Shown here: positions 11,145 through 49,070 of the stretch, in pieces
Position numbering within the stretch: position 1 is the first letter of the stretch
How the letters are laid out: each line of letters starts with the position of its first letter
Assembly: GCA_030248195.1 (NCBI GenBank)
Contig: JASAND010028820.1
Location: 27,283-91,282 of the forward strand
Direction of reading: 5' to 3'
DNA: 64,000 nucleotides
From: Trissonchulus latispiculum
Taxonomy: Eukaryota; Nematoda; Enoplea; Enoplida; Ironidae
Position numbers and translations under genes: made by a program
Notes under the pieces: model-generated
Seen by the model: only the letters and a program-made list of their open reading frames with translations
Database searches by the model: none
What the model was told of the DNA's origin: nothing

Positions 11145-11569
11145 AAATTTTTCGAACGGATGCTGTACTGTCACATCTTTTTTCGTTTTATTGCAGTATT
11201 AAACTGAATTGAAACATTGGTAAAATTATTGAAACAACGTCTTGCACGTGTGTTTTCTGTAGTAAGCAAAAAGAATTCCGTTATAAAGAATTAGCTGCGC
11301 AGCAGGTTTACAATTACTGAAAATGTCCGTTCAGTAGAAACTTGACTTTTTGCAAAAAATCTTGCTTGTTGCAATAGTAGATATAAAATGGCGATTCTGG
11401 CACAAAATAGGATTCAATTCTAGTTCAAATCTAAGGGAATCCTACTTGCTCCTAGTTCAAAAGTGAATCCTGCAAAGTAGGATTTCTCTGGGAATCCTGC
11501 AATGTAGTAAGTTTGGTTACTAGCGACAGTACGCGTCTCTCCGTATAAATTATAAAGTTGGCTAGCTGC

Positions 11570-12265
11570 AAATCATATGAAACCTGTTTTAGAAGACAAG
11601 TATCAAGAAACATTACAATTCTCAATTTTATTCACTATTTCAAAACAGCAACATCATACGTACGTACAAAACCAGTTGCTGTATTTTTTCTTGCTTGTCA
11701 ACAGATATTGTGGCATTTGAATTTAGTGCAAACGTCACATCAACAGTAATAGAAACATGTTCTCACAAAACCAGTTAGATATGGCTGTATTTTTGCAAGC
11801 ATAACTTACTTTTGCGGCATTAGACTTTACTACTGTCTTCACGTGCTTTAAGAGCACCATAGATCGCACAAAACCGGTTACAAGTTATTTTATTGGGTAT
11901 TTTCTGCTTATTAACACTAACACCGCTAACGTGTTTACGCTTGTTTATCAAGAAACCTGTTTCGTAAATGAGTAAGACCGTTGAAGAACACTGCTCTGTT
12001 TTCTACATCGACAACAGCATTATCATTCGTACGAAACTAGTTAATAGTTATTGCTATGTTTTCGATTGAGCAATAACATCGCGGGTGTATTTTAATGTCA
12101 TTACAATTCGCTCCCTTCTCCACTGTTTCAAATGTCATATAAAAACCAGTATTTGTCGTAACTTGTTATATTCTTTTACAGATTAAAGTCGGACACCTGA
12201 AAATTACTTACTTATGAAATTGTAACTCTACTTGCGTCTCTCTTATTTTCGTAGTATCAAAACTG
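11570..12265. repeat. Degenerate ~95-105-bp subterminal repeats in the palindrome arm
   Basis: The word AAACCAGTT or a close variant (AAACCTGTT, AAACCGGTT, AAACTAGTT, AAACTGGT) recurs near 11580, 11670, 11766, 11873, 11953, 12044, 12148 and 12252, usually followed by TATTTTC-like and ATTA/ACATC words. The mirrored set lies at about 13965-14650. Such arrays could be binding sites for the encoded zinc-finger protein or for replication factors; this is inference. Confidence 0.45.
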
Positions 12266-12309
12266 GTCCGTTTTCCATGTGCAAAGTACTTACGTTTATT
12301 TGAAAAATA

Positions 12310-12315
12310 TTTATT
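12310..12315 (-). promoter_or_regulatory. Poly(A) signal AATAAA, left-arm gene
   Basis: The complement of TTTATT lies about 60 bases beyond the stop of the left-arm zinc-finger gene and mirrors the signal at 13911-13916. Confidence 0.55.
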
Positions 12316-12373
12316 CAAAAACTCTCGTATTCGCATTATGGTATTAGTAATGTTAACTGTACTAGTGCTCAGT

Positions 12374-12982
12374 TTACGTGTCTATATGATCGCCTTCCTT
12401 GTCTTCTTCTGTCGTCATCTGGTAGTCTTCTTCTTCGTCATTCATTTTCGCTAGATTGGCAAGTATATGAATGTCGATGCTTTTGTTCTTTTGAATCGCC
12501 AATTGATAAGCATCCATGGAGTCTATACCTTTGTCTTCTTCAATCAATTCCTTTTTATCGTGTATTTCTTTTATTATTGGATCATTTCTGAAATCAGTAA
12601 GTTGTATGAATTTGTTTAATAGCAAATGATTTAGCGTCTGGCGGATACGTGGCAATAAATCGGCTAATGCTTCAAGTCTAGCTCCAGCTGACGAATAACC
12701 GTCTTCTTCATATTCTCTTAAAACCCTCTTGAACTTAGGAGTATGCCTTTCTAATGCTTCAGTCTTTAAGTCATTCCAGAAAGCGCCTAGCTGTTCTGTT
12801 TCCTGGTCTTTCGCGTCATCGCTGGTCTTATTTGAATCCTGATCAGAGTCAGTATCGTATTTATCGGTTTCATCAGTGACAGCTTCGTTATGTAAGTTGT
12901 CTGCTTGGTGAGTCCTCATCTTATGATTGTATAGGCTTTGACGATGTGAATAAGTCTTCATGCAAACAGAACAGTCATACAT
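12374..12982 (-). CDS. Single C2H2 zinc-finger protein, left-arm copy
   Basis: Starting at ATG 12982, this 202-aa protein opens with one C2H2 finger (C-x2-C-x12-H-x4-H: Cys and His within YDCSVCMKTYSHRQSLYNH...H, residues about 3-24). A highly acidic Asp/Glu/Ser segment follows (about 30-65), then a helical region with FWNDLKTEALERH, ALADLLPRIRQ and a DAYQLAIQKNKSI motif near residue 165, and an acidic tail. I recall a loosely similar plan (one finger, acidic stretch, LLP and AI-KNK helices) in uncharacterised proteins of many invertebrate genomes, but cannot search it here. No intron is needed. It differs from the right-arm protein at 8 of 202 residues. The function is unknown; nucleic-acid binding is likely. 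Confidence 0.82.
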   Translation of the reverse strand: MYDCSVCMKTYSHRQSLYNHKMRTHQADNLHNEAVTDETDKYDTDSDQDSNKTSDDAKDQETEQLGAFWNDLKTEALERHTPKFKRVLREYEEDGYSSAGARLEALADLLPRIRQTLNHLLLNKFIQLTDFRNDPIIKEIHDKKELIEEDKGIDSMDAYQLAIQKNKSIDIHILANLAKMNDEEEDYQMTTEEDKEGDHIDT

Positions 12983-13028
12983 TCTCAATGCTTACGTCAG
13001 TACTTATTGTAAGTATGGAACCTATTGC

Positions 13029-13197
13029 CCTTTTATTAATTCTGGCTTACGAAAGTACTTACACAAGTCTATGCATCTACTCCCCGTCCACCTCATATCT
13101 AGAATACAAACCAAAGTTGAGAGGTGGACGTTGGATGGGGGCGTAAAAGATGCATAGACTTGTGTAAGTACTTTCGTAAGCCAGAATAAATAAAAGG
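13029..13197. promoter_or_regulatory. Central divergent promoter of the palindrome
   Basis: On each side of the centre an AT-rich TATA-like word (AATAAATAAAAG at 13185-13196; its mirror ATTAATAAAAG near 13030-13040 on the minus strand) lies roughly 45-60 bases before the ATG of the gene on that side. Head-to-head genes sharing one symmetric control region is the simplest reading. The start sites themselves are not visible. Confidence 0.5.
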
Positions 13198-13243
13198 GCA
13201 ATAGGTTTCATACTTACAGTAAGTACTGACGTAAGCATTGAGA

Positions 13244-13852
13244 ATGTATGACTGTCCTGTTTGCATGAAGACTTATTCACATCGTCAAAGCCTATACAAT
13301 CATAAGATGAGGACTCACCAAGCAGACAACTTACATAACGAAGCTGTCACTGATGAAACCGATAAATACGATACTGACTCTGATCAGGATTCAAATAAGA
13401 TCAGCGATGACGCGAAAGACCAGGAAACAGAACAGGTAGGCGCTTTCTGGAATGACTTAAAGACTGAAGCATTAGAAAGGCATACTCCTAAGTTCAAGAG
13501 GCTTTTAAGAGAATATGAAGAAGACGGTTATTCGTCAGCTGGAGCAAGACTTGAAGCATTAGCCGATTTATTGCCACGTATCCGCCAGACGCTAAATCAT
13601 TTGCTATTAAACAAATTCACACAACTTACTGATTTCAGAAATGATCCAATAATAAAAGAAATACACGATAAAAAGGAATTGATTGAAGAAGACAAAGGTA
13701 TAGACTCCATGGATGCTTATCAATTGGCGATTCAAAAGAACAAAAGCATCGACATTCATATACTTGCCAATCTAGCAGAAATGAATGACGAAGAAGAAGA
13801 CTACCGGATGTCGACAGAAGAAGACAAAGAAGGCGATCATATAGACACGTAA
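13244..13852 (+). CDS. Single C2H2 zinc-finger protein, right-arm copy
   Basis: Inverted twin of the left-arm gene, 202 aa from ATG 13244 to TAA. The finger (YDCPVCMKTYSHRQSLYNH...H), acidic stretch and helical domain are all kept. The eight differences from the left copy (S/P, T/I, L/V, V/L, I/T, K/E, Q/R, T/S) are mostly conservative and none touches a zinc ligand. Both frames stay open, which argues for selection, for gene conversion between arms, or for recent formation. An AATAAA at 13911-13916 is the likely poly(A) signal, and the left arm has the same at 12310-12315 (complement). Confidence 0.85.
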   Translation: MYDCPVCMKTYSHRQSLYNHKMRTHQADNLHNEAVTDETDKYDTDSDQDSNKISDDAKDQETEQVGAFWNDLKTEALERHTPKFKRLLREYEEDGYSSAGARLEALADLLPRIRQTLNHLLLNKFTQLTDFRNDPIIKEIHDKKELIEEDKGIDSMDAYQLAIQKNKSIDIHILANLAEMNDEEEDYRMSTEEDKEGDHIDT

Positions 13853-13910
13853 ACTGAGCACCAGTACAGTTAACATTACTAATACCATAAAGCGAATGGG
13901 AAAGTTGTTG

Positions 13911-13916
13911 AATAAA
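13911..13916 (+). promoter_or_regulatory. Poly(A) signal AATAAA, right-arm gene
   Basis: AATAAA lies 59 bases after the TAA of the right-arm zinc-finger gene. Confidence 0.6.
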
Positions 13917-14855
13917 TATTTTCCAAATAAGCGTAAGTACTTTGTACATGGAAAACGGACCAGTTTTGATACTACGAAAATAACAGAGACGCAAGTAGAG
14001 TTACAATTTCATAAGTAAGTAATTTTCAGGTGCCCGACTTTAATCTGTAAAAGAATACAACAAGTTACGACAAATACTGGTTTTTATATGACATTTGAAA
14101 CAGTGGAGAAGGGAGCGAATTGTAATGGCATTAAAATACACCCACGATGTTATTGCTTAATCGAAAACATAGCAATAACTATTAACTAGTTTCGTACGAA
14201 TGATAATGCTGTTGTCGATGTAGAAAACAGAGCAGTGTTCTTCAACGGTCTTACTCATTTACGAAACAGGTTTCTTGACAAACAAGCGTAAACACGTTAG
14301 CGGTGTTAGTGTTAATAAGCAGAAAATACCCAATAAAATAACTTGTAACCGGTTTTGTGCGATCTATGGTGCTCTTAAAGCACGTGAAGACAGTGTAAAG
14401 TCTAATGCCGCAAAAGTAAGTTATGCTTGCAAAAATACAGCCATATCTAACTGGTTTTGTGAGAACATGTTTCTATTACTGTTGATGTGACGTTTGCACT
14501 AAATTCAAATGCCACACTATCTGTTGACAAGCAAGAAAAAATACAGCAACTGGTTTTGTACGTACGTATGATGTTGCTGTTTTGAAATAGTGAATAAAAT
14601 TGAGAATTGTAATGTTTCTTGATACTTGTCTTCTAAAACAGGTTTCATATGATTTGCAGCTAGCCAACTTTATAATTTATACGGAGAGACGCGTACTGTC
14701 GCTAGTAACCAAACTTACTACATTGCAGGATTCCCAGAGAAATCCTACTTTGCAGGATTCACTTTTGAACTAGGAGCAAGTAGGATTCCCTTAGATTTGA
14801 ACTAGAATGGAATCCTATTTTGTGCCAGAATCGCCATTTTATATCTACTTGCAAT

Positions 14856-28710: not shown

Positions 28711-29306
28711 GGGTCTTTTCCAGATTACCCCCCACCACTCAAAGTTCTTAAAACTCGACCAAATGAGTTGAAATTTTGTGTGGGGATGTTCTCGACCACG
28801 CTGAGTTCAAATATGTCAAAATTTTTCGATTTCGCGAAATTCGATTTTTTTCGATTTCTAAGGGGGGACTTCCAAGGGTACCGAAAAATTTTTTGTCTTC
28901 GATTTTGCTGAAAAGTTGTATATAAGGGTTTTAAGGGTCGCAGAACACGAATCTGAAGTCCGTTTTTCGATTCAGCTTTTCGTTAGCTCAGCATAGCTTT
29001 CATCTTAAGCTTACAACTTTAGCTTACGTCAGGCTAACGAAAAGCTGAATCAAAAACAGACTTCAGATTCGTGTTCTGCAGCCCAGAAAACCCCTATATA
29101 CAACTTTTCAGCAAAATCGAAGACAAAAAATTTTTCGGTTACCCTTGGTCCCCCCTTAGAAATCGAAAAATTCGAATTTCGCGAAATCAAAAAATTTGGC
29201 GATATTTGAACTCAGCGTGGTCGAAAACACACCCACACCAAATTTCAGCTCATTTGGTCGAGTTTTAAGAACTTTGACTGGTGGGGGGGTAATCTGGAAA
29301 AGACCC
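28711..29306. mobile_element. 596-bp foldback element with perfect 8-bp target duplication
   Basis: GGGTCTTTTCCAGATTACCC at the left end is inverted at the right end, and the two halves pair almost throughout. AAAGTCTT lies directly outside both ends (28703-28710 and 29307-29314). It has no protein frame. Related copies are 45481-46078 and parts of 33240-33900 and 47220-47880. Confidence 0.85.
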
Positions 29307-29639
29307 AAAGTCTTCTTAAAAAAACAAGTCAATTCAGTTACAGCAATAAAATCTATCCCAACGATTTGCATCTGTGCGGTGGAGGGGCTGTTCTATCATT
29401 GGAGGTCCAACCTCAAATATTAATCGAACAATAGACGATCATAAATTTTGAACAATTTAGTTTCAAGGGGTCTGTACTCCGTAGTCTGTGCTATGTATAC
29501 TCCACCAGTATACTAAATACTAATGTTTAAATATTAACAACTTACATTTTCATAAGGACCCGATAATATAGGAAATCTCACAATTCAATAGGCAGGACGA
29601 GTGGAAATCATTGCAGGAGCAATATTATAGTAGATTCGC

Positions 29640-30800
29640 CCAATCTGCGTCATACCCCAAAGTGCGTCACTCAGTTGTTTAAAGTTACCTGGTGCACTAC
29701 AAAATAGAAGATATCCTAAAGTTTTCACATTTCTAAGCAGGTCTATTCAAGCTCTATGCAATGGTGTAAAAATTATTTCCTTAAAATTTTTTAACAGTGC
29801 ACAATGCTACAAAATTCAATATACTTTGAATAAAACACCCATTGTCCGTCAAATTTTAAGCAATGTCCCGAATTCAGTTTTATGCACCTAACAATCTTAA
29901 TACTTAACAACATTTAATGTGCCAGCTATCAAATTATTCGTTAGAATCTGCTGATTCCAAAAATATGAACGATTCCTGATTTGACCGTACTAGAACTGAG
30001 AAATTCTGATTTTACTGGAACCAGTGATCAGTGCCTAAAGTGCGTCGCTCAAAATTAACTTTTTGCGCAAATATCCCTAATGTGCGTTCGTATCTTTTAC
30101 ATGTAAATTTGCTTCAAATAAATGCAAATACTGGGTTTATAACTTAACTTAAGACAAAACTAAGTGCAAAAACACAATCCTAGGAATAATTCTGAGCAAT
30201 GTGATACCAAATTTTCTGTTTTTATGGCATTTTATTTTTTTAGGAAAAGTCGTTGTTTCCTGCTTTAAATCATAAAATTACATTTTATTAATTGTTATAG
30301 TTTAATTTGCAAATCAAATTCGCTTTAAATAATACAGTACTGGCATTTTAACAAATTTTTCGAAGATCACAGATTTTGTTGATTTTGATATATATTGTTT
30401 ATATACGAGCCAACTACCATATAAAAAATTTTCGTAGCATAAAATTGTCGGAAACAGGGGTTATTGCATCTCAAAGTTTGCTTTTCTAATGCAAATCATA
30501 GGAACTTTGAAATGACGCACTTTAGGACACGTCCGACGCACTTTAGGGAATGATCTTTTCACAGCGAAAAATTGCAATTTTTAACATAAAAATGGCTATA
30601 ACTTACGATTGGCTTTACCTAATACCGTCAAATTTTACAGAAATGTAGAAGCAGAGGTGCTTGAGACTTCTGTAAAGTTTTATGTTATGAAATTTTGCCA
30701 TTCAAAAGTTACAGATTTTCAAAGTGACCACTCCTTTTGCGTACACAAAAGGTGACGCAGATTGGGCGCATCTACTATACTGCTGTAATCAATTCTTCAA
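29640..30800. other. Non-coding stretch in unit 1
   Basis: AT-rich DNA without an exon I can support. The words GTGCGTC and GACGCACTTTAG recur in both orientations (about 29650, 30040, 30515, 30535), suggesting a worn foldback repeat. It is absent from unit 2, where homology jumps from about 45420 to 45430. Confidence 0.45.
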
Positions 30801-31035
30801 GTACATTTTAAGGCGAATGTCCATATTGCTAGCTTTCACGATTTATATACTCGAATCAGTTGCTTGCTTACCCTTGTCATGTTTGCTTCAGCTAACTTTT
30901 GAGCTTTGCTTTTAAATGAATAATCGGCAAATCCTGGCTTTAAAACTTACAGAAAAGTTCTTCGAAATGGCCATCTAGCCTTAATGAATGGGATACGTGC
31001 GCAGCATAAATAAAGCAGGTTTCATAAAAGACTTT

Positions 31036-31157
31036 CTCAGCAATGCAATTCTCGGCAATGCCTTTCTCGGCAATGCAATTTATGATTCTTTGACTTTCTC
31101 GGCAATGCAAGAAATGAGCATTGACCTTTCTTGGCAATGCAATTCTCGGCAATGAAT
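31036..31157 (+). repeat. Minisatellite (TTCTCGGCAATGCAA)
   Basis: About six degenerate copies of a CTCGGCAATGCAA unit. The same array is at 46273-46397 in unit 2, so it predates the duplication. Confidence 0.7.
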
Positions 31158-31601
31158 GTTGAAGCGACCGTTGAAACTTTTACGCATATGCAGATTGCAG
31201 AGCTGCACTTTCCAGAGCGCTGTTTTCTCTGTGCGTCTGAGTGTGCTACAAATGTAGTGTCTGTCATTCAAATGGCTTCAAAAGCTTTAACACATGGCCA
31301 GAAAAGTGCTGGTTTTTATTGATACTTCCTGAAAAATGGTGCAGGGTCAGTTTATTGTGAACGATTATAATTCCATTTTTGAATTATTGTTATATTTACC
31401 TTTTCTAGTGTAGTTTTTTTAGCCCGGCCGGGGTTGGTTGGGCAGGCGGCCAGAGTGAGCGAGATGGATTTTATGAGTTGTATATTTGCGGTTATTCAGC
31501 AGGCATTTTACAGTTTTCACAGCTTGTTTTGAAAAATTAAGTTTAAATTTACTTGGAGAAAGTTTGACATTGTTAACTGTATACTACACATTATAACGTG
31601 T

Positions 31602-32591
31602 TTAAGGTGGTGATTCCTTTTGGGCACATATTGTTGATTGACGGCGTAAACCAGGATGAAATTCAACGAAACTTTTCAAAATAAGTTGTTTTAGCGTTCT
31701 AACACTCTCTGCGCAATCGCGCTTCAAAAATTCAACATTTGCGTTCAGGGCGGTTTTTGCCAATTTCTGAACGTTTGGCAGCAGCTGCATGGCTATGACT
31801 ATATCCATTCGAAAGAACTCGTTAAACTCTACTATTTTGCTTTTGGAAGCAACTTTCTAGCTTTTCCCTATCGTGAGATATAGCCAATTTTCTTATTTTG
31901 GCGTCAAAAACTTGTCCTTTCTGCAGAAATCAAATAATCCACTACTTCTTAAGCTACGAAAGCCGTAAAATTTAACTAAGGGTGTCGATTTAAAGGTCTC
32001 ACAGAGGCTAATTATCGGAGGCATGACCATCGTACAATTGCTATCCCTTAGGCTGCTATCACAAAAAATGTAGTTTTTGCAAAAACACGACCAAATTTTT
32101 TCCAGCGATTGTGCAGAATTTAGTATGCAAGCTAGAGAGTTGCCACTTAGCAGATGTGTTCTACACAAAAATACCCCGGGACCCTTTTTTAGTTGCCCCG
32201 ATAGCTGCTTTCTAACTGAAGTAGTGGCTTGCCAAAGTAGTGAAAAGTAGGCAAAATCCAGGTTGCGCAGACATTTTAGTTTATTTCTCCATAACGAAGA
32301 GCGATATCACAATAACTAAAAAAGGGTCCCCAGCTATTTGATAGAGGTATCGAATTCTCTAACCGATGTCCTGCGAAAAAATTTACTTCAGCCTGCAAAA
32401 AATCTGAAAAATTATACTTCTTCTAAAATACAGGAAAAACATTTTGGAAAGCCAAACTTAGATTCATTGTACTCATTAAAACGAGAAAATGTTAGGCTAC
32501 ATTTTGATATAAAGATGACTTCTTAACTCCAAATAATGAATGAATAATAGTGGTTCAAAGTTGATGTCTCCAAAAGGAATCACCACCTTAA
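31602..32591. mobile_element. TTAA-flanked DNA element, 18-bp inverted ends
   Basis: TTAA-GGTGGTGATTCCTTTTGG at 31602 is perfectly inverted at 32570-32591, CCAAAAGGAATCACCACC-TTAA. TTAA target duplications are typical of piggyBac and Kolobok elements. The 0.98-kb interior has no transposase. A truncated relative with the same right end lies at 43745-44381, and a more distant one at 59366-60931. Confidence 0.85.
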
Positions 32592-34120
32592 ATGAATAAT
32601 GAAACTCACTCACTCACAACAACAACTACTTCAGCTTCGATTATATAAATTAAAAAGTAAAGCAATTTTACTATCATTAATGATAGTAAAAATGAGTCGG
32701 ATCTCTTTAACTGTTCCCCCCAACTCGTTTGGGGGGAAATAGTTAAATTGGGGTCATATGTGTTAAGATGTACTTAAAGGTTGAAATAAAGGTGATAGAA
32801 GTTATCTGGGTGATTCTGACCTGTTCTGAATGAAAAATAAAATAATATTTTAGTCCCTTGTGTTCAAACTAAAAATATCTATTTTAAAATAATTTATTAG
32901 CTCAAGCTAATTCTTAAATTTAGTATACCTACATGTACAATGAACTAATGGTAACTTAAATAATTCATGAAATTTAAACATTAAATATTTTTAAAATTCA
33001 ACATGTTTAAAAGTTATATAACTTAAACATTTTTTGGAAAATTTAAAGTGTTTAATTATTGGTTGATTGATTATAATATTATTATAATTATTATATAATT
33101 ATTACTATTATATATTATTATAATATATATAATTGACTGGAAGCATCTGTTGTCAGTTCCATTTGTGTATACTTTACTTGCGTTACTAAACGCTGCTAAA
33201 ATACGAGTTTATGTACAGCTTCCAATTTGGGGGGAATAGTTAGAGTCCAGTTAAAGTTTCCAGATTACCCACCACCACCACTCAAAACTCTTAAAACTTG
33301 ACCCAATGAGCTGAAATTTGGTATGGGTATGTTGTCGACCTCGCTGAGTTCAAATATAGCAAAATTTGGGTTTCTTGCGCTCCCCCCAGCCATAACTGTT
33401 GAGTTTTTGACCATTAACTTTGAAGTTGGTCTGGGTGCACAGTGGAGGCTTATAAATTCAAAAATTCTAACATTAGAAAATATTTTAAATTTTAGTTTGG
33501 TAAGGGGGAACCTAGGGGAACCGAAAAATTTTTGTCTTCGATTTTGCTGAAAACTTGCATACAGGGCTTTTCAGGGGCGCTGAGCACTAATCTGAAATCC
33601 GTTTTTCGATTCGGCTTTTCGTTAGCTCAGTAAGCTTACATGTTAAGCTAACAACTTTAGCATATACTGAAATTCTCCTTGCCAAAGAAAAATTAAAAAT
33701 TTTTTAAAATGTTTTAAAATGTTTAAATTTTTTAATTTCTGAATTCATAAGCCTCCGGTATATATGCACCCAGACCAAATTTAAAAGTTATTGGTCAAAA
33801 AATCAAAAGAAATGGCTGGGGGAAAAGCGCAAGAGACCCCAAAATTTTTCGATTTAGTGAAATTCAAATTTTTTTCGATTCGCAAGGGGGGGGACCAAGG
33901 GGGAACACACATTACAATGTGAACTTAAATTAGTGGCCGCTGAAGTAGAATTTCATTATATATTTCTTGAACTAAACTTGGCCCACGTCAAGATTAAAGT
34001 CAATTTTTCATGCGATCTACCATTTGCTTTTTTTCTTGGAGCTTTTATTTTCATGGTGGTTGTGGGCGTTCTTAATGTTTTGTAGAGATTTGATCTATAA
34101 CTTTGGGAGGTGACTAAAAC
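32592..34120. other. Non-coding stretch with AT-rich hairpin and foldback remnants
   Basis: A (TTATAA)-type palindrome at 33070-33135 is kept in unit 2 (47050-47115). Bases 33250-33900 are relatives of the 28711 foldback element, sharing CCAGATTACCCACC and ATGAGCTGAAATTTGGTATGG. No exon seen. Confidence 0.5.
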
Positions 34121-34620
34121 CAGGACCAGGACCAGGATCCATTTCAAAATCAGGATCAGGATCGGGTGTCTAAAAACAGGATTCATTTCAGGATCGGTCT
34201 AAAATTTCAGGATCGGCTTCAGGATTGACTTGTAACTTCAAGATCGGGCTTAGGAATGGATCCATAGTTCAGGATCGGGTGTCTGAAAAAACAGGATACA
34301 TTTTAGAATCGGCCGAAAACTTCAGGATCGGTTTCAGGGTCGGCTTAGGAGTGGATCCTGAGTTCAGGATCCGGTGCCTAAAAACAGGATCCGTTTCAAA
34401 ATCGCCTTGTAACTTGAGGATCCGGTTAGGAGTCACAACCTGCAATCGACCTAATTTTTTGACACCCGATCCCGAACTCAGGATCCACTCCTAACCGGAT
34501 CCTGAAGTTAGAAGCCGAGCCAGAAACGGATCCTGTTTTAGACACTCGATCCTGAACACAGGATCCATTGCTAAGCCGGATCCTGAAGTTACAAGTCAAT
34601 CCTGAAGCCGATCCTGAACT
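34120..34620. repeat. GGATC hairpin array, unit 1
   Basis: From 34120 to about 34400 a unit of about 100-110 bp with many CAGGATC words repeats three times (ACAGGAT-C/T/A-C at about 34138, 34177, 34287, 34386). From about 34470 to 34620 the sequence is its reverse complement (GATCCTGAA words). The whole can fold into one long stem. It lies just beyond the 3' end of the ERI1 copy and is kept in unit 2 at 48060-48560. Confidence 0.75.
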
Positions 34621-34748
34621 GCCTTCTTACTTAATTAATTAGGTATCTTACCCAACTGACAAAAACCACAACAAATAAATGTTTACTTAGTATACAAGCA
34701 CTAAAAACCGAGTACACATAAATAAGTAAAAACAATCAAAAAATACAA

Positions 34749-35125
34749 TTAGCCGGAATCAGTATCCGATCCTGAACAAGTCTGACATTCGTCATAAAGA
34801 TCGGCCAAGAATTCTCGTTTACTAACAGACAATAGTTTATATCTAGCTTCACAGCAAGATTCGACAGAAAGTCCCTGTCCCCTATCAGGCGATAGGCCCC
34901 GAAATTTTCTGGCAACGTCCGTCTTGAATCCGACGGAACTTTCGCCCGCACTCTGATTCTGTTCCTCATCCAAATTTTCCAAATCCTTTTCGCGAGTTTC
35001 CGTTAGTTTTCTTCGGTTACGACTGACAATTCGTTGATTGATTCGAAAATCAATACCGTCCTGAAGCATGCGAATCACAATTCTAGTAATATTTCTAGAA
35101 TCATCCAAGCCGCAATGCTGCCGAC
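34749..35125 (-). CDS. ERI1: ERI1 left copy exon 6: exo III motif and C-terminal extension
   Basis: Encodes RQHCGLDDSRN, with the catalytic His and Asp, then a charged tail of about 100 residues ending in an acidic GSDTDSG and TAA. Human ERI1 ends soon after the exonuclease domain, so the tail is lineage-specific. Acceptor TTGCAG. Confidence 0.88.
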
Positions 35126-35321
35126 CTGCAATAAAGAATCAACAAAAAACTTAAACCGTACGCTGACACGGTTGGTTTTCATTCACTAATCATACACACT
35201 AAAAAATGCGGCTACGTTAGGTAAAGGGACAATGGAATAACTTAACAAAAGGTAAGGTAAGGTAGAAATACCATGGTATGGTATTAAAATAATACAAGTA
35301 TCAGTGGAGACAAAAATTTAC

Positions 35322-35491
35322 CTTCAAACTCCAGTCCAAGACTCTGAAGCATCTTTGGAAGGGTCAGAAACTGGATACGATAGGAATAAGTGAACAGCTT
35401 TCGGACGTTGATCCAGTAACGGAACTCGTGCGGAACCGGAATACCGCTGTGACGACACTGAAGGGGAAAGAATTTGGCCAAGTCCCAGGGT
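35322..35491 (-). CDS. ERI1: ERI1 left copy exon 5
   Basis: Encodes PWDLAKFFPLQC and YWINVRK, then MLQSLGLEFEG. This is the middle of the ERI1 exonuclease domain (human WD-KFLNIQC, WINIRK, MLEKLGM). 170 bp. Confidence 0.9.
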
Positions 35492-35865
35492 CTAAAAATC
35501 AACAAAAAAATTGTAAAGTAAAATAAAAGACTTTAAAGAAAAGCAGAATCAATTTTAATCAGAAAAAAGTGCTCTGCCCACTCCAACAGCACATTGTAAT
35601 TCCTGCCGCACATCGCTGGACTGGTAAACACTATCGATTCATACAATCAGGAGTTCATAACACACGTATACAAAGACATTCTTATCATAAGTGCGGAACG
35701 ATAGTCTCACCAAAATACGCGAATGTTCCCGCATTTGGGAGGGGGGCCTACACAACAACGCCTTTACCAAGGTAAGGCAGAAAAGGTAATTTGTAATTGC
35801 TTACTCCAAACAAACTTGGAAGGAATTTCTGCGACCTGGCTGACCCACCAGTGATAGCTACTACC

Positions 35866-36532
35866 AAGAGTGCATAATTGCGCTATATATTAGAAGAAGA
35901 GTAAGCCGCTAGAGGGCTTCTCTTCTTGGCATTGCGTAACGGTGCTCCGACCACAATACGCGAATGTTTCCCTGTTTGGTGGGGGGTCGACAAGCATACC
36001 CCCTCCCCGTTTGGTGGGGGGTATGCAAAAGGGGTCCCCGTTTGGTGGGGGGGGGGGAGTAGGCAGAAGGGGGTGCCCGTTTGGGGGGGGTCGCCAAGTC
36101 AGGCGGAAATTGGGTGAATCTGATTGGCTGTTGGCGAGCCCCCCCCCAACGGGGCCCTCTTTTGCCTACCCCCACCCAACGGGGACCCCTTTTGCATACC
36201 CTCCTCCCACCAAACGGGGACCCCTTTTGCATACCCCCCCCACCAAACGGGGACCCCTTTTGCATACCCCCCCACCAAACGGGGACCCATTTTCAAATAG
36301 AACAAAAACTACCGTAATCCTCTGCTCTACCCCCCCACCAAACGGGGACCTCTTTTCAGCTACTCCCCCACCAAACGGAGGGGGGGTATGCTTTGTCGAA
36401 GAGAGCTACCCCCCACCAAACGGGGAAACGGGAACGGGGTATTGTGGTCGGAGCACCGTTACGCAATGCCAAGAAGAGGAGCCCTCTAGTGGCTTACTCT
36501 TCTTCTTATATATAGTGTAACTATGCACTCTT
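35866..36532. mobile_element. 667-bp MITE in the ERI1 left copy, empty site preserved in unit 2
   Basis: The inverted ends exceed 90 bp: AAGAGTGCATAATTGCGC... against ...ATGCACTCTT, with shared inner words CGTAACGGTGCTCCGACCAC. Flanks GCTACTACC (35857-35865) and GCTACCACC (36533-36541) are a likely 9-bp target duplication. Unit 2 has the single uninterrupted GCTACCACC at 49805-49813. The interior is an array of CCCCGTTTGGTGGGG / TATGCAAAAGGGG modules in both orientations. Long ends and 9 bp suggest a Mutator-type element. Confidence 0.83.
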
Positions 36533-36534
36533 GC

Positions 36535-39500
36535 TACCACCTTTAGACGGCGAGTTTCCCAGCGACCCCAAAACGAGGGTCTCGTTCATCTTCCACCTTC
36601 GAAAATTAAACTGAAACTATCGTCGTAATCCTCTACCTAAGCTCTGCCCCCCCTTTCCGTTTGGCGAAGTGTCTCTCCAATATGATTGGCTGTTGACTAC
36701 CTCCCTCCCCAAACGTAGAGAGGGAATGTTTTGTCGACCCACCACCAAACTGGAGAACACTTGCGCATTCTTAACTGAGAAAAATTAAGAAAAATATAAG
36801 AAGACGTTCTTCTTCTCTTCTTCTTCTTCCTATAATCATACAGTTGTGACCTTTCAGACAATCCTTAGAAAACAGCACAATAGATGATAATATAATCATG
36901 CTTCGTCTAATCTTTGCACTAAGGATGAGGGTCCGTCATAAAAAATTGGACAGTCATCGATTTCGCTCATTTTTACACATAAGTTAGCCCGCCCATACCT
37001 GAACGGTAGGTCAAATTTCACTGACTCTTGTGGAAACAAATTTCGGTACCGACGGTGGAAGCAATTTTTGAGCCACAGGAAGCAATATTCACTAGCCTTA
37101 TATTTGAAAGCGAGTTTTCAGCGATGTTTGCGGTTTTATAAAGAAAAGCAGCGATTTTTTAGCAATTCATAATGTTTTACGCTTTTGAGACAAAAATAGT
37201 AATTTTAAGTGACAATTCCCTTGTGGCCAATTTTCTTACCCCTTGTGGGAACAATTTCGTGACCCCTTGTGAGCTACTTCGCCGGGGAGGGGGAAATTTC
37301 CCCCTATCCACCTGTGGGTTAGCCACAAATGCCGTCCTATCAAGTTTAAGTATAGAGTTGTTTCCTCCACTTTTCCACGAGTTACGAGCTTTTAACTGCT
37401 TGCAATTTGAATAATGGGCGAAAACAAGGGTACCGCATTAGACTAAGGCATTTTTTCTTGTACAAACTTCGACATAGAGCTTCAATGGGGTGTATATTTG
37501 AAAATTGATCTAATGAATTAAGTTTGTGCCGATTTTAGCAGAGGCTAAACTTGATTTGAAGCTTTGTTTGACGTCTTTTTCACGAGCAGCATCGCCACTG
37601 TTGAGGCTTTAATCACAAAAGCCTCTAACTGGCCATTAACTTAAATTTGGTGCATTTGCGAACAATCGTTCAAGAAGAAAAAATGTTCCCCACAATAAGA
37701 GCTTTAAATTTACGTCAAACTTGTCTTGTTTTTAGAAATTTGAGAAACCGGAAATTTTTGCCATATGGGTGCCAGTCCGACAGATTGGGATGCAGCCAAG
37801 TTGGGCCACTTAGCTAAAACAATTGTAGTCATTACTGAGCTACTACCACCAGAAATAACGTTCAACAAGATATTTTGGCAATTGGTAGCTGCTGATTCCC
37901 ATGGTCACACGTCATGTGAGCAAAAAATCGAAAAATACAAAATTTTGGAAAAACCAAATTTCTAGCGACAAAGAATCTTGAAATTTGACAAAGCAGACCA
38001 GCATCATTTGGTATCGTTAGAAACGTCTATTTATATACTGTGATTTGCTGGGATTAGATGTTTTAGACCTTTCAATATTTGTATGCTTGATCAAAATAGG
38101 AGTTGCTTTCAGTAACGAAAAACGTCAAATTTCACAGTTATGAGGTTTCAAAAATTATTTAGAAAATTCAATGCCCTAACTCAAAAATCTAATTCCAACA
38201 AATCACAGTATAGACCTTTCTAACGATACCAAACAAAGCTGGTAATCTTTGCCCAGTTTAGAGATTTTGTCACCAGACCTAAATTGAATCTTCTCAATTT
38301 CCTATGTTTAACATTACCGTCATCAACTTTGAGGTGAAACTACTCGCTAACCGTAAGAGACCCGACGTTTCAACAACTCGTTAAAATATATCAATCGGAC
38401 AACAAAATATGTGACAATGAGCAAACTCGGAGATGGTGGAAACATCGGCCAGAAATGAAAATAGCTACCTTTAACGGCCAGCTTCCCAGCATCCCCATAA
38501 ACGTTCACCTCCTACCTTCAAAAATTAAGCTGAAACTATCGTAAACCTCTACCTAAGCTCTACCCCCCGCCCGTTTTGGAAGGTGTCTCTCCAATCTGAT
38601 TGGCTGTTGGCTATCCTATCCCCAAACGTGGAGAGGGAATGTTTTGTCGACCCACCACCAAACTGGAGAACACTTGCGCATTCTCATCTGAGAAAAATTA
38701 AGAAAAATATAAGAAGACGTTCTTCTTCTCTTCTTCTTCTTCCTATAATCATACAGTTGTGACCTTTTCAGACAATCCTTAGAAAACAGCACAATAGATG
38801 ATAATATAATCATGCTTCGTCTAATCTTTGCACTAAGGATGAGGGTCCGTCATAAAAAAATTGGACAGTCATCGATTTCGCTCATTTTTACACATAAGTT
38901 AGCCCGCCCATACCTGAACGGTAGGTCAAATTTCGCTGACTCTTGTGGAAACAAATTTCGGTACCGACGGTGGAAGCAATCTTTCCCTATATTTGAAAGC
39001 GAGTTTTCAGCGATATTTGCGGTTTTATAAAGAAAAGCAGCGATTTTTTAGCAATTCATAACGCTTGACGCTTTTGAGACAAAAATTGTAATTTTAAGTG
39101 GAAATTTCCTTGTGGCCAATTTTCTTACCCCTTGTGGGAACAATTTCGGGACCCCTTGTGAGCTACTTCGCCGGGGAGGGGGAAATTTTCCCCCCGTCCA
39201 CCTGTTGGTTAGCCACAAATGCCGTCCTATCAAGTTTAAATATAGAGTTGTTTCCTCCACTTCTCCGCGAGTTACGAGCTATTAACTGCTTGCAATTTGA
39301 ATAATGGGCGAAAACAAGGGTACCGCATTAGACTAAGGCATTTTTTCTTGTACAAACTTCGACATAGAGCTTCAATGGGGTGTATATTTGAAAATTGATC
39401 TAATGAATTAAGTTTGTGCCGATTTTAGCAGAGGCTAAACTTGATTTGAAGCTTTGTTTAACGTCTTTTAAGGAGCAGCATCGCCACTGTTGAGGCTTTA

Positions 39501-40380
39501 ATCACAAAAACCTCTAACTGGCCGTTAACTTAAATTTGGTGCATTTGCGAACCATCGTTCAAGAAGAAAAAATGTTCCCCACATGAAGAGCTTTCAATTG
39601 ACGTCAAATTTGTCTTGTTTTTAGAAATTTGAAAAACCGGAATTTTTTGCCATATGGGTGCCAGTCCGACAGATTGGGATGCAGTGGACAAGTTGGGCCA
39701 CTTAGCTAAAACAATTGTTGGCAAACTGAGCTACTGCCATCAGAAATAACGTTCTACAAGATAATTTGGCAATTGGTAGCTGCTGATTCACATGGTCACA
39801 CATATGGGCAAAAAATAAAAAATACAAAATTTTGAAAAAACCAAATTTCGAGTGACAAAAAATCTAGAAACTTGGCAAAGCAGACCAGCATCATTTGGTA
39901 TCGTTAGAAACGTCTATTTATATATATACTGTGATTTGTTGGGATTAGATGTTTTGGACCTTTGAATATTTGCATGCTTGATCAAAATTGGAGTCCCCCA
40001 GCTTTCAGTAACGAAAAACGTCAAATTTCACAGTTATGAGGTTTCAAAAATTATTTAGAAAATTCGATGCCCTAACTCAAAAATCTAATTCCAGCCTTTA
40101 TTCAAACAGCTAATTCCAACAAATCACAGTATAGACCTTTCTAACGATACCAAATGAGGCTGGTTATCTTTGCCCAGTTTAGAGATTTTTGTCACTAGAC
40201 AAAAATTGAAACTTTCAATTTCCTATGTTTAACATATACTTTGAGGTGAAATTACTCACTAACCGTAAGGGATCCGGTGTTTCAACAACTGGTTAAAATA
40301 TACCAATCGGACAACAAAATAATATGTGACAATGAGCAAAATCGGAGATGATAAAAAATCGGCCAAAAATGGAGCCCCCC
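36535..40380. repeat. Tandem duplication, two units of about 1.91 kb
   Basis: The block starting at CTACCACCTTTAGACGGCGAG recurs at about 38460 with a period near 1913 bp (for example GTTTTGTCGACCC at 36728 and 38641; the CCTGAACGGTAGGTC word recurs likewise). Only a short piece of it exists in unit 2 (49805-50110), so it arose or expanded after the ERI1 duplication, or collapsed in unit 2. It lies in ERI1 intron 4 and has no exon. Confidence 0.8.
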
Positions 40381-42436: not shown

Positions 42437-42440
42437 TTAA

Positions 42441-42516
42441 TACCAGTAAACCATATACAAAAATCACTCAGGACAGGATTAACCTTTGGCTTACAATAAG
42501 CATGAAATTCGTCTAC
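42441..42516 (-). pseudogene. ERI1: ERI1 left copy exon 3, main part
   Basis: Encodes VDEFHAYCKPKVNPVLSDFC and WFTGI (human ERI1 has YVRP...LSDFC-LTGI). The last 8 bases and the donor are stranded at 40876-40883. Confidence 0.9.
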
Positions 42517-42721
42517 CTGAAATAAACGTCCAACAATACAACGAAAACCAATGTCAGATTTATGAATTGAAATCTTTACCATAAAATTGAAAAATCGTTT
42601 TCTCAAACACGGAGAAAATCTGCAAAATCCAAGCCACAAATGCAAAGACAGTTTACTGCACATTGCCCGCCAAAGACAAACGTATACAAAAGAATCCAAA
42701 CCTTCAAGAAATGAAACCTAC

Positions 42722-42950
42722 AATTTCTAGCGTGGACGTTTTCAGCAAAACGATGGGAAATTCTATGATTTCATGAGGATAGTTGAGCTGCTGCCCCTCC
42801 AGACAGGTACACTCAAAGTCCACAATGCAGAGGAAGTCATAGAACCGATCGTATACTGGAGTGTCCTTGTCTTTGGTCTTTTTGTCGTTCGTTTTGGTTC
42901 GATTGCGACAATGATCCTTCAGGCGGCGTTTCAGCTGATCCTTATTTCCC
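42722..42950 (-). CDS. ERI1: ERI1 left copy exon 2: SAP end and exo I motif
   Basis: Encodes GNKDQLKRRLKDH (end of SAP), a basic spacer, then FYDFLCIVDFECTCLEG and HEIIEFPIVLL. D and E of DFE are exo I metal ligands. 229 bp. Confidence 0.93.
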
Positions 42951-43744
42951 CTAAAAAAACGCAGTCACAAGAAGATTACAGCTCATTGCAAAAGGTTCTA
43001 TCAGCTTGCTCGTCGAGCTGCAACACGTAAACATAGAGCGAATGAGCGTCCACAATTGTCTACTGGGCAATTGACCTTTCAGCTTGATAACTAACAGTGT
43101 GTCGCTTGTCACACCCTTCCTGCGTATTATAGGGGTGTGGTTGTGACAGAGCTTCTCTAAAATCTGAGTGTGCACTTGCTGCACCTGCAGGTTGGAAGGA
43201 ATCAAACCAGGAGACTAGGTGTTTCCCTAGAGGGGGGGGCGCCAGAAGTAGATTCCCCCAGACTTGGGTCGTCCTCCTTCCCTGTGTGAAGTTAGCACCG
43301 ACAGGAAAGATATAAATTATATGCGAGCTGCTAAGCCCAAGTGAATTAGTATTATATTTCGACAAACGTTCAATGATTCTACGTCACTCCTGTCTAAATT
43401 CATAGGTCTGATTAGCTAATACTTGTGATTTGCCATATTGGGTATTCTTGTGCGCAGTTGTGGGTGTAAGCTGATCGAGAGTGGTTGGGTAGCGACGATT
43501 AGGTTCGAATTTGGGGAGTGAATTTTTGGGTTTTGGTCTAATTCCCTTGTCGCACTGTCGGCTTCTGCAGGGCGTTTGTGGTTGGTTCTGGTATTTTGTC
43601 AAGGTTTATACTTTTGGTTAAAATTAATGTTTTATATTAATCTTGTTGTCAAATTTTGCTCGAAAGTTAATAAATCGTTGTAATCGCCAAATTGACTATT
43701 AGTTGGTCAGGATCCTCCATTTCTCCAACATCGCACACCACCTA

Positions 43745-44381
43745 CGCAAGCCGTAAAATTAAACTACGGGTGTCAATTTGAAGGTATCGTCGAGGCCGAT
43801 TATCAGTTGACATTATAATCTTTTTAAGTGCTATCCCGTTCGCTGCTATCATAAAAAATGTAGTTTTTGCAAAAACATGACCAAATTTTTTCCAGTGATT
43901 GTGGAGCATTTACTATGCAAGCTAGAAGGGTGCCACTTACTGGATGTGTTTTACACAAAAATACCCAGGGACCCGTTTTTAGTTGCCCCGATTGCTGCCT
44001 TCTAGCTAAAGTGGTCGCTTGCCAAATTTGGGAAAAGTAGGCAAAATCAAGGTTGCGCATACATTTTAGCTAATTTCTTTACAATGAAGAGCGGTTTCAT
44101 AATAATTAAAAAAGGGTCCCCAGCTATTTGATAGCAGAATCGAATGATGTGGCCGATTCCTCACGAAAAAATTTACTTCAGTCTGCAAAAAATCTGGAAA
44201 ATTAAATTACTTCGAAAATGCAGTAAACTAATTTCCAACACCTAAAGTTAGTTTCACAACATTCATTTAAAAGAGCAAATGTGAAGCTACTCTTTGATAT
44301 AAAAATGTCTTCTTAACTCCAATGAATGAATGAGTAATAAGGGTTCAAAGTTGATGTCTCCAAAAGGAATCACCACCTTAA
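43745..44381. mobile_element. Truncated TTAA element
   Basis: Its right end, CCAAAAGGAATCACCACC-TTAA (44360-44381), and body match the right two-thirds of 31602-32591, but the left end is missing. On both sides lie two copies of a host segment (about 43070-43270 and 44383-44540) that is single in unit 2 (51540-51740), so a local duplication accompanied it. Confidence 0.7.
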
Positions 44382-44860
44382 CAGTGTATAGCTTGTCACA
44401 CCCTTCGTACGTATTATAGGGGAGCGTGAAGAGTGCTCGCCTATAATCTGAGTGTGCACTTGCACCTGGAGGTTGGAAGTAATCAAAACAGGAGACTGGC
44501 TGTTTTCCTACGGGGGACGCAACAAGTCGATTCCCCCAGACTTGGGTCGTCCTCCCCCTCTTTGGGATTTAGGGCTTTCCCCACAGAATCCGAAAGTGCC
44601 CGGAAAATAGGGACTTGATGGTAAAGTAAAATTTTCCCGACGAATTCTTAGTTCATTTTAGCAATTTTAAGCTGAAATTTTAAGTTAAAAATTGTTCCAC
44701 TGTTTTCCTTTAGCATGTTTTCAGACATTTTGTGAACAAATTCCCTCACCCCCATAGATTTTCCCTCATCAGAAAATTAAGACTTAAAAGAATTTAAGAA
44801 GAGAATTTAAGCCAGACAGGCATTATAAAAATCGCGTATTGAAGGGGGGGGAAGCCGTAC

Positions 44861-45078
44861 CTTGTATTCAGGCGAAGTTTGGACAACTGATCCACGATTT
44901 CGTCCTTTTTCAGCTGATTTATGATCCCACAATAGTGGGCTGGTTTGGTGCACAATTTCCGACTGTTTCCGGAAACGGCAGCCAGATTTCGAAACACATC
45001 CCGTCCGGACGTGGACCGTTCCCCGGATCCATTGAAGACCTGAATATTTGAGGCTTCAGCTTTGGAACTGCCACTCAT
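44861..45078 (-). CDS. ERI1: ERI1 left copy exon 1: start and SAP domain
   Basis: MSGSSKAEAS... followed by YCGIINQLKKDEIVDQLSKL, matching the SAP start of ERI1. 218 bp, donor GTACGG. The open frame continues upstream only for a few codons before unit-2 DNA begins. Confidence 0.9.
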
Positions 45079-45480
45079 TTCAACTGCGAGTACGCACAAA
45101 TTTTCTTAAAAAAACAAGTCAATTCAGTTACAGCAATCAAATCTATCCCAACGATTTGAATCTGTGCGGTGGAGGGGCTGTTCCATCATTGGAGGTCCAA
45201 CCTCAAATATTAATCGACCAACGGACGATTATGCATTTTGAACAATTTAACTTCAAGGGGTTGTACTCCGTAGTCTGTGCTCTGTATACTCCACCAGTAT
45301 ACTAAACACTAATGTTTAAATATTGTATACTTATATTTGCATTAGGACCCGATAATATCGGAAATCTCACAATTCAATAGGTAGGACGAGTGGAAATCAT
45401 TGCAGGAGCAATATTACTGCTGTAATCATGTTCTTCTTCAAGAACATTTTAAGGCGAATGTCCATATTGCTAGCTTTCAC

Positions 45481-46078
45481 GGATCTTTTCAGGATAACCC
45501 ACCCCAGGCCCAGATTCCGCAAAACTTGATCAAATGAGCTGAAATTTGGTATGAGTATGTTTTCAACCACGCTGAGTTCAAATATCGCAAAATTTTTCGA
45601 TTTCGCGAAATTCGATTTTTGTCGATTCGTAAGGGGGGACCAAGGGGACCCGAAAAATTTTTTGCCTTCGATTTTGCTGAAAAGTTGTATTCAGGGGTTT
45701 TCGTGGTCGCAGAACACAAATCTGAAATCCGTTTTTCGATTCAGCTTTTCTTTAGCTCAGTATAAGCTACATCTTAAGCTTAGAACTTTAGCTTATATTG
45801 AGCTAACGAAAAGCTGAATCGAAAAACTAACTTCAGATTCATGTTCTGCGACCTCGAAAACCCCTGAATGCAACTTTTCAGCAAAATCGAAGACAAAAAA
45901 GTTTTAGCGTCCCCTTGGTCCCCCCTTACGAATCGAAAAAAAATCGAATTTCGCGAAATCGCAAAATTTTGCGATATTTGAACTCAGCGTGGTCGAAAAC
46001 ATACCCATACCAAATTTCAGCTCATTTGATCAAGTTTTGCGGAATCTGGACCTGGGGTGGGTTCTCCTGAAAAGATCC
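45481..46078. mobile_element. 598-bp foldback element, empty site preserved in unit 1
   Basis: GGATCTTTTCAGGA...TCCTGAAAAGATCC ends, flanked by GCTTTCAC on both sides (45473-45480 and 46079-46086). Unit 1 keeps the uninterrupted GCTTTCACGATT near 30833. Same family as 28711-29306; arms contain the ATTTCGCGAAAT word. Confidence 0.87.
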
Positions 46079-46272
46079 GCTTTCACGATTACCTACTCGA
46101 ATCAGTTGCTTACCCTTGTCATGTTTGCTTCAGCTAGCTTTTGAGCTTTGCTTTTAAATGAATAATCGGCAAATCCTGGCTTTAAAACTTGCAGAAGAGG
46201 TCTTCGAAATTGCCATCTAGCCTTAATGGATGGGATACGTGCGCAGCATAAATAAAGCAGGTTTCATAAAAG

Positions 46273-46397
46273 ACTTTCTCAGCAATGCAATTCTCGGCAA
46301 TGAATTTCTCGGCAATGCAATTTATGATTCTTTGACTTTCTTGGCAATGCAAGAAATGAGCATTGACCTTTCTCGGCAATGCAATTCTCGGCAATGA
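46273..46397 (+). repeat. Minisatellite (TTCTCGGCAATGCAA), unit 2 copy
   Basis: Counterpart of 31036-31157 with scattered substitutions. Confidence 0.7.
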
Positions 46398-46684
46398 ATG
46401 TTGAAGCGACCGTTGAAACTTTTACGCATATGCAGAGCTGTACTTTTCAGAGCGCTGTTTTGTCTGTGCGTCTGAGTGTGCTACAATTGTAGTGTCTGTC
46501 ATTCAGATGGCTTCAAAAGCTTTAACACATGGCCAGAGAAGTGCTGGTTTTTATTGATACTTCCTGAAAAATGGTGCAGGGTCAGTTTATTGTGAACGAT
46601 TATAATTCCATTTTTGAATTATTGTTATATTTACCTTTTCTAGTTTTTTTAGCCCGGCCGGGGTTGGTTGGGCAGGCAGCCAGG

Positions 46685-48059: not shown

Positions 48060-48560
48060 CCAGGACCAGGATCAGGATCCATTTCAAAATCAGGATCAGG
48101 ATCGCGTGTCTAAAAACAGGATTCATTTCAGGATCGGTCTAAAACTTCAGGATCGGCTTCAGGATTGACTTGTAACTTCAAGATCGGGCTTAGGAATGGA
48201 TCCTGAGTTCAGGATCGGGTGACTGAAAAAACAGGATTCATTTTAGAATCGGCCTAAAACTTCAGGATCGGCTTCAGGGTCGGCTTAGGAGTGGATCCTG
48301 AGTTCAGGATCCGGTGCCTAAAAACAGGATCCATTTCAAAATCGGCTTGTAACTTGAGGATCCGGTTAGGAGTCACAACCTGCAATCGATCTAATTTTTT
48401 GACACCCGATCCTGAACTCAGGATCCACTCCTAACCGGATCCTGAAGTTAGAAGCCGATCCAGAAACGGATCCTGTTTTAGACACTCGATCCTGAGCACA
48501 GGATCCATTGCTAAGCCGGATCCTGAAGTTACAAGTCAATCCTGAAGCCGATCCTGAACT
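48060..48560. repeat. GGATC hairpin array, unit 2
   Basis: Counterpart of 34120-34620 with the same tandem units and inverted arm. It lies about 135 bases beyond the ERI1 stop codon, so it could be part of the 3' untranslated region or mark the end of the transcript. Confidence 0.75.
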
Positions 48561-48693
48561 GCCTTCTTACTTAATTACTTAGGTATCTTACCCAACTGAC
48601 AAAAACCACAACAAATAAATGCTTACTTAGCATATATACAAGCACTAAAAACCGAGTACACATAAATAAGTAAAAACAATCAAAAAATCACAA

Positions 48694-49070
48694 TCATCCG
48701 GACTCAGTATCAGATCCGGAACAAGTCTGACATTCGTCATAAAGATCGGCCAAGAATTCTCGTTTACTAACAGACAATAGTTTATATCTAGCTTCACAGC
48801 AAGATTCGACAGAAAGTCCCTGTCCCCTGTCGGGCGATAGGCCCCGAAATTTTCGAGCCACATCCGTCTTGAATCCGACGGAACTTTCACCCGCATTCTG
48901 ATTCTGTTCCTCATCCGAATTTTCCAAATCCTTTTCCCGAGTTTCCGTTAGTTTTCTTCGGTTACGACTGACAATTCGTTGATTGATTCGAAAATCAATA
49001 CCGTCCTGAAGCATGCGAATCACAATTCTAGTAATATTTCTAGAATCATCCAAACCGCAATGCTGCCGAC
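48694..49070 (-). CDS. ERI1: ERI1 right copy exon 6
   Basis: RQHCGLDDSRNITRIVIRML, then the charged tail ending GSDTESG and TGA. 377 bp, acceptor TTTCAG. Confidence 0.9.

Follow-up and report, generated by a model that had tools for sequence, protein, structure and literature searches.

A palindromic, gene-bearing element with Polinton ends in the nematode Trissonchulus latispiculum, probably a satellite of Polintons

A 64,000-nt stretch of the genome of the nematode Trissonchulus latispiculum (assembly GCA_030248195.1, contig JASAND010028820.1; hereafter the window) contains a 3,474-nt palindrome at positions 11376-14849. This element, here called W, has the ends AGTAG...CTACT and carries one copy of a zinc-finger gene in each arm; other copies are named by their contigs. 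W is very probably a non-autonomous, gene-bearing satellite of Polintons that would borrow a Polinton's integrase and protein-primed polymerase, acting in trans, and be copied through a hairpin or fold-back. That it is a satellite of Polintons, as a preliminary description of this DNA had proposed, is well supported, because a Polinton with the same ends was found in the genome and because other copies of the palindrome have different flanks. The family is mobile, with many copies lying between different exact 6-nt duplications. The use of Polinton enzymes in trans, and the hairpin or fold-back step, are what we infer from the ends and from the symmetry of the copies.

The palindrome and its relatives in the genome

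The terminal sequences of W are AGTAGATATAAAATGG at 11376 and CCATTTTATATCTACT at 14849. Aligned over 1,702 positions, its arms (11376-13078 and 13148-14849) show 32 substitutions and one 1-nt insertion or deletion (indel) between them; the symmetry then continues, via small indels near the centre, to a 9-bp stem, which gives arms of about 1.72 kb. The AGT...ACT ends, the TGCAAT duplication and the arm length of the preliminary description were all recovered in their place, as was its central loop, whose length is 26 nt in W and not 25. As a measure of chance, 29 of 60,514 window positions have identical 6-mers separated as in W. A homologous loop of 25-26 nt is found in C19734, C2854 and C9902, which suggests a single origin of the palindrome in this subfamily, predating the divergence of these copies; none was found in C20833.

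A search of the 734-Mb assembly with the first 525 nt of the arm yielded 94 candidates, 40 of which were scored: 15 places (9 loci) belong to the satellite and 25 (24 loci) are ends of a larger element. The subfamily of W comprises five complete palindromes, W included, with five different perfect 6-nt duplications (TGCAAT, CTTGTG, AACAAT, CAAGAA and GATGTT), together with partial copies at C15826, C13201, C4180 and C9047, two of them near a contig end. Two further palindromes represent separate subfamilies. The one on C10020 measures 3,096 nt, has the duplication CACTGC, encodes a protein 59% identical and has arms 99.1% identical over the outer 1,450 nt; the one on C6488 measures 4,930 nt, has the duplication AACATT, encodes a protein 45-48% identical and has arms 99.95-100% identical in two stretches. 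The end hexamer is exactly AGTAGT in C6488 and agrees with it in five of six letters elsewhere (AGTAGA in W's subfamily, AGTAGC in C10020). The genome thus holds at least seven complete palindromes, and the question raised earlier, whether other copies have different 6-bp flanks, is answered by all seven (7/7). C18234 is a further palindromic copy, seen in a stretch that did not extend to its ends.

Shorter forms accompany the palindromes. Three complete ones were examined, with the duplications ATCACT, GTCGAT and GACGAT: the gene of one arm is cut in C8922, C13112 has one gene, and C14841 (17365-18456, L054) is a gene-less element of 1,092 nt with C10020-type ends and a perfect 6-nt duplication. 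With these, the duplication is perfect in 10 of the 10 complete copies examined. The contig of the gene-less element also bears a second end pair, 1,094 nt apart. Among the best 40 of 779 candidates for the C10020-type end, 16 plus/minus pairs lie 1.1-3.1 kb apart, one with an incomplete end. Since the flanks are different, arm substitutions are private and independent copies stand on other contigs, an assembly artefact is an unlikely source of W. At the centre of C19734 (L009:2272-2483), its left host flank and the first 166 nt of the element appear once more, through either an assembly error or a real rearrangement.

Searching the genome with the encoded protein gave 151 matches from the best 150 of 1,292 candidates. 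Among the 150 matches listed, 39 neighbouring pairs lie within 6.5 kb of each other, 36 divergent, one convergent and two on the same strand; because the matches of both same-strand pairs overlap, these are read as split matches of one broken gene. The divergent pairs are separated by 0.1-0.9 kb in 27 cases and by 1.3-5.6 kb in nine. Such wide gaps occur on C13014, C5580, C11996, C5446, C18074, C3197, C3544, C9355 and C368, and these pairs are perhaps satellites with inserts or extra genes, or ancestors.

Ends shared with a resident Polinton

Nine satellite ends of W's subfamily were compared with 25 Polinton ends. Over nt 1-107 their identity averages 91.4% (80.4-98.1), and over nt 108-207 it falls to 55.1%, against 53.6% in a shuffled control; the first 15 nt are exactly alike in 31 of the 34 ends. 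In W these 107 nt contain AGTAG, TATAAAA and spaced GAATCC motifs. Vertebrate Mavericks have ends of the form (AGT)2 or (AG)3 and 6-bp duplications, according to the available portion of PMC8097293. The sharing of the 107-nt end region alone points to a cis sequence that would be recognised in trans.

The larger element is represented by a full-length Polinton at C3326:3827-17905, 14,079 bp long, flanked by the duplication TGTGAG and bounded by terminal inverted repeats (TIRs) of 215 nt that are 97.7% identical. Its ends start AGTAGATATAAAATG and have a TATAAAA box. The preliminary description had suggested looking for exactly such an element, and larger-element ends stand at 24 loci among the 40 scored places. 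The 23 other loci are 76-99.7% identical to the C3326 element, one of them (L026) showing the end region alone before its contig stops; several copies are more than 99% alike, which suggests recent activity. Similarity between the satellite arm and the C3326 Polinton ceases at about 107-157 nt, and the satellite gene has no tblastn match in three stretches of that Polinton (E 1) or in the 23 other loci (E 0.01; 0.9 to 6.1 kb of each), nor does the satellite protein match the C3326 open reading frames (ORFs) beyond chance. The earlier view of the palindrome as two gene-bearing terminal repeats therefore holds as anatomy, but the repeats are not those of this Polinton.

Above the Pfam cut-off, the C3326 element encodes an rve integrase (E 3e-15), a NADAR-domain protein with a C2H2 finger (L033:1679-2494, E 1e-38) and a TATA-binding protein (TBP; PF00352, E 9e-26), the gene for which adjoins the terminal repeat (L018:3758-4255; also L021:4255-4752). 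Below the cut-off lie matches to the Pox_A32/Adeno_IVa2 ATPase, to the adenovirus protease (Peptidase_C5, E 5e-4) and to a double-jelly-roll (DJR-like) capsid protein (E 0.005). The opposite end holds a 1174-aa ORF with a C2H2 finger, endonuclease VII matches and a DTDS motif, which we take to be polymerase motif C. From the position of the TBP gene beside the TATAAAA-bearing repeat comes the idea that the element-encoded TBP might act at the Polinton's own ends; no relative of this gene was found in viral contigs, and a limited literature search on element-encoded TBP found nothing on the topic.

The gene carried by the arms

Each arm of W has one ORF of 202 codons, and the two copies are divergent, reading outward from the centre, so that transcription would also run outward. 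None of 3,000 random arms of equal base composition had a stop-free run as long. No other ORF of at least 130 aa is present in W, which bears out the absence of Polinton core genes noted earlier, and the two gene copies are likewise the only ORFs of at least 120 aa in the examined stretches of C10020, C18234 and C6488. Both copies are open in W, C19734, C2854, C10020, C6488 and C18234; stops, frameshifts or deletions affect the gene in C9902, C20833 and C9047.

The protein has an N-terminal C2H2 finger, with Aart as its best solved-structure match (E 2.8e-7) and PHROG 6283 matching the finger region (E 3e-5). Pfam gave no family at its cut-off and no match to an integrase, ATPase, protease or capsid family; among its weak matches is TRIP12 (E 2e-4 to 1e-3, inside the span of residues 16-124 of 205). 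AlphaFold predicts a helical protein, with a predicted local distance difference test (pLDDT) score of 56.7 alone and 67.6 with six sequences, and Foldseek found nothing at E 0.001 for the prediction in a viral or a PDB library. Outside this genome, word- or pattern-limited searches found no homologue of the full-length protein at E 0.001 among 127 candidates, none of residues 55-202 at E 10 among 241 candidates, and, when viral contigs were queried with two alignments as well as the protein itself, no confirmed relative there. The exact W end sequence was not found in the viral contigs, and W DNA matched nine phage records in fragments whose E values, about 1 or more, we regard as chance level. 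The gene had been called conserved, which is true within the host genome, where aligned copies are down to 45% identical, but beyond it no relative was found; the satellite protein family was not found in the databases searched. The protein would be a DNA-binding factor for replication, packaging or regulation. Zinc-finger ('Ziftr') genes are described for some adintoviruses in the available portion of PMC11071296.

Selection was assessed through the ratio of nonsynonymous to synonymous substitution (dN/dS) in 28 gene comparisons among W, C19734, C2854, C15826 and C20833. The ratio lies at 0.15-0.38 in the 21 comparisons whose dS exceeds 0.1; the remaining seven, which rest on few changes, give 0.58-2.84 or no defined value, and between the left and right genes of W the ratio is 0.61 on 11 changes. 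This pattern indicates a gene that is kept between lineages, where the ratios point to purifying selection, with no sign of constraint between close copies.

The non-coding part of the left arm bears an array of AACYNGT motifs (Table 1). All five compared copies of W's subfamily have 3-9 such motifs per arm, and the terminal 1 kb at each end of the C3326 Polinton has none. Binding of the C2H2 protein to this array would be our guess.

Table 1. Features of the palindrome W and its flanks (window positions)
Feature	Position	Strand	Remark
Target-site duplication TGCAAT, left	11370..11375	.	6 nt, perfect, directly outside W
Left arm	11376..13094	+	Arm alignment
Terminal 107 nt, left	11376..11482	+	Common to Polinton family; 91.4% mean identity (9 satellite vs 25 Polinton ends)
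AACYNGT array, 9 motifs	11581..12267	+	Mostly 80-110 nt spacing; 0.8 expected in shuffles
AATAAA polyadenylation-like signals, two, after left gene	12315 and 12300	-	
Gene copy, left arm	12374..12982	-	202 aa; one C2H2 finger and predicted helical part
Centre	13086..13129	.	9-bp stem GTCCACCTC/GAGGTGGAC and 26-nt loop (13095-13120)
Right arm	13121..14849	-	Mirror of left arm; arm alignment
Gene copy, right arm	13244..13852	+	202 aa
AATAAA polyadenylation-like signal after right gene	13911..13916	+	
Terminal 107 nt, right	14743..14849	-	Mirror of left end
Target-site duplication TGCAAT, right	14850..14855	.	6 nt, perfect, directly outside W

Elsewhere in the window, inverted ends 1,444 nt apart with a 6-nt flanking repeat GCGACG (280-1723) are perhaps another mobile element, or chance. 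Blocks of several kb are present in two diverged copies (28750-40371 and 42437-52263), roughly 76-94% identical and holding nested inverted repeats of about 600 nt. A reverse-transcriptase-like ORF lies at 59726-60340, and two of its three database relatives carry PF00078.

Origin of the symmetry and comparison with known systems

In the five copies of W's subfamily, the arms of one element are 97.9-100% identical, with four regional exceptions (the coding part of C20833, 91.4%; the 3' region of W, 96.2%; the innermost parts of W, 96.9%, and of C9902, 96.6%), while the non-coding arms of the most distant lineages are 55-77% identical. In each of the 10 pairs of these copies, between 12 and 307 sites have variants that unite the two arms of an element, no site has a variant joining arms of different elements, and arms of the same element are paired at 100 bootstrap in four of the five. 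Arm differences are private to one arm and never common to two copies. Polarised as left, right or ambiguous, they number 15, 16 and 1 in W, 5, 13 and 1 in C19734, and 3, 2 and 1 in C2854; these three copies were near-perfect palindromes at insertion.

A cycle of the following kind would produce this record. As the outer 107 nt or so are those of the resident 14-kb Polinton, the Polinton integrase would insert the satellite, giving the 6-nt duplication, and the Polinton polymerase probably initiates at the AGTAG ends through protein priming. The satellite's own cargo between these ends would be the C2H2 gene alone, once per arm. A displaced single strand, being self-complementary throughout, could fold into one long hairpin with a duplex end, and copying of this hairpin, or fold-back at the central stem, would renew a near-perfect palindrome before every insertion. 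Mismatch repair in the hairpin, half-genome copying and later gene conversion are candidates for equalising the arms. The other proposal of the preliminary description, a new small hairpin replicon, may also hold and enters into this cycle. The near-perfect palindromes could then be read as the trace left in the genome by a hairpin or fold-back step, one that would fit protein-primed replication, and the family suggests that, in an animal genome, Polintons can themselves be parasitised by gene-bearing elements.

Several observations weigh against this interpretation. Neither transposition nor replication was observed. The arms of W are not sisters in the arm tree (support of 82/87 for W's left arm with C19734), which we attribute to too few changes since W split from C19734, and dN/dS between these two copies is 0.58-2.84, on few changes. 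The arms of C20833 agree at 98.8% over the outer 752 nt and at about 80% further in, a contrast for which a perfect palindrome at insertion gives no simple account. The two-gene palindrome is not the sole form: C8922 and C13112 have one intact gene, and 72 of the 110 contigs among the protein matches listed have a single match, where a scoring limit or lost arms are possible; single-gene copies may be losses after insertion or reflect that limit. No Polinton-length pair with a C10020-type end appeared among the best 40 of 779 candidates, and the C6488-type end was not searched. Finally, the 1174-aa ORF matched no polymerase in Pfam (E 0.1), PHROGs (E 1) or solved-structure sequences, nor did a 1251-aa relative in Pfam at E 5, so that the name polymerase rests on its size, DTDS motif and endonuclease VII domain; these, with its place in the element, weakly suggest that it may be the Polinton polymerase.

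Among other explanations, gene conversion in the chromosome might keep the arms alike in an element that otherwise moves as an ordinary long-TIR element. Long chromosomal palindromes do undergo conversion, the homogeneous outer arms of C20833 beside its diverged centre would fit conversion tracts, and the first 570 nt hold just 2 of W's 32 differences (shuffles give P 0.0003, with the boundary chosen post hoc). The 31 polarised differences of W, however, split 15 to 16, as for simple decay after insertion, and conversion has not erased the differences in one 170-nt stretch of W, because 14 lie there (windows chosen post hoc); we consider this account unlikely, while giving it some weight. A one-off snap-back of the defective-interfering type, in which a Polinton end was copied, folded back and inserted once, is very improbable for W. 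The fold-back geometry with its 26-nt loop would suit it, and snapback defective genomes are described for adeno-associated virus (AAV) in the available portion of PMC8235507, but the homologous loop occurs in four copies, the palindromic form recurs in deeply diverged copies, and the inner arm and gene have no match to the C3326 Polinton stretches. A single such event was rejected for W, which belongs to a multi-copy family; a snap-back may instead be the origin of the family.

Derivation by internal deletion from a larger Polinton with very long, gene-bearing TIRs is improbable as well. Long repeats are on record, with vertebrate Maverick TIRs of up to 1,447 bp (PMC8097293, available portion) and a cryptophyte polinton-like virus survey that retained TIRs of 100 bp to 8 kb (PMC12220804, available portion), and the nine wide-gap pairs among the 36 divergent ones could be taken in its favour; the C3326 Polinton, by contrast, has 215-nt TIRs and no match to the gene, and in four copies the symmetry comes as close as 25-26 nt to the centre, which random deletions would not produce. 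It is scarcely credible that W has nothing to do with Polintons and belongs to the foldback or other cut-and-paste transposons. IS3EU and GingerRoot also make 6-bp duplications (PMC10045372, available portion), and Galileo typically has long TIRs with internal repeats and recurring binding sites (PMC3688188, available portion), but W shares its first 107 nt with a resident element that encodes an rve integrase and further genes of Polinton type. IS3EU and GingerRoot have ends of TA..TA or TG..CA (PMC10045372), not the AGTAG..CTACT found here, and identity with either was rejected on the AGT..ACT ends of W's subfamily.

Mavericks encode capsid proteins, and particles had not been observed according to the available portion of PMC8097293. 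More tentatively than the satellite reading itself, and with a probability we place somewhat short of even, the family could form a distinct class of animal satellite replicon, with a self-complementary genome, a mirrored gene and hairpin replication by the Polinton protein-primed polymerase. It would possibly be packaged in Polinton particles, its near-perfect palindrome would be re-made each cycle, and at least three subfamilies would have arisen from it, with different ends that are perhaps adapted to different Polintons.

Palindromic forms are known from other linear replicons. The pGKL hairpin plasmids of Kluyveromyces are palindromic deletion derivatives of pGKL1, laboratory-arisen and cytoplasmic; they resemble the satellite as palindromic derivatives of a protein-primed linear element, but are not integrated and derive from pGKL1 by deletion. 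Palindromic adenovirus defectives also exist, and by analogy these, the yeast plasmids and the AAV snapbacks show that linear DNA replicons can give rise to palindromes. Virophages and other satellites of large DNA viruses are small and depend on the machinery of a bigger relative, but virophages have capsid genes of their own, where the satellite has one gene twice. We know of no Foldback or Galileo element with a gene repeated in both arms. These elements share with the satellite very long TIRs with repeated subterminal motifs, and differ in their P-superfamily transposase and their ends (PMC3688188, available portion); no THAP domain was matched in the satellite protein or the scanned C3326 ORFs. 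AAV snapbacks are self-complementary duplexes with a suggested satellite role, but carry pieces of the parent virus (PMC8235507, available portion), whereas the satellite is a multi-copy integrated family whose gene was not found in the Polinton and whose arms match the end of the C3326 element, the parent compared, to about nt 107-157.

No account of a palindromic, gene-bearing Polinton satellite was found in the literature searched, with Repbase and most subscription papers outside it, which is not proof of absence; the satellite is filed as a variant of non-autonomous elements not found described there. With Polintons and Mavericks (polintoviruses, adintoviruses) it has in common a 6-nt duplication, its end motif comes close to their repeated AGT type (PMC8097293, available portion), and its terminal 107 nt are common to the resident full-length element. 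In contrast to them, no integrase, polymerase or capsid gene was found in it, and it is a palindrome of 3-5 kb with a gene of its own.

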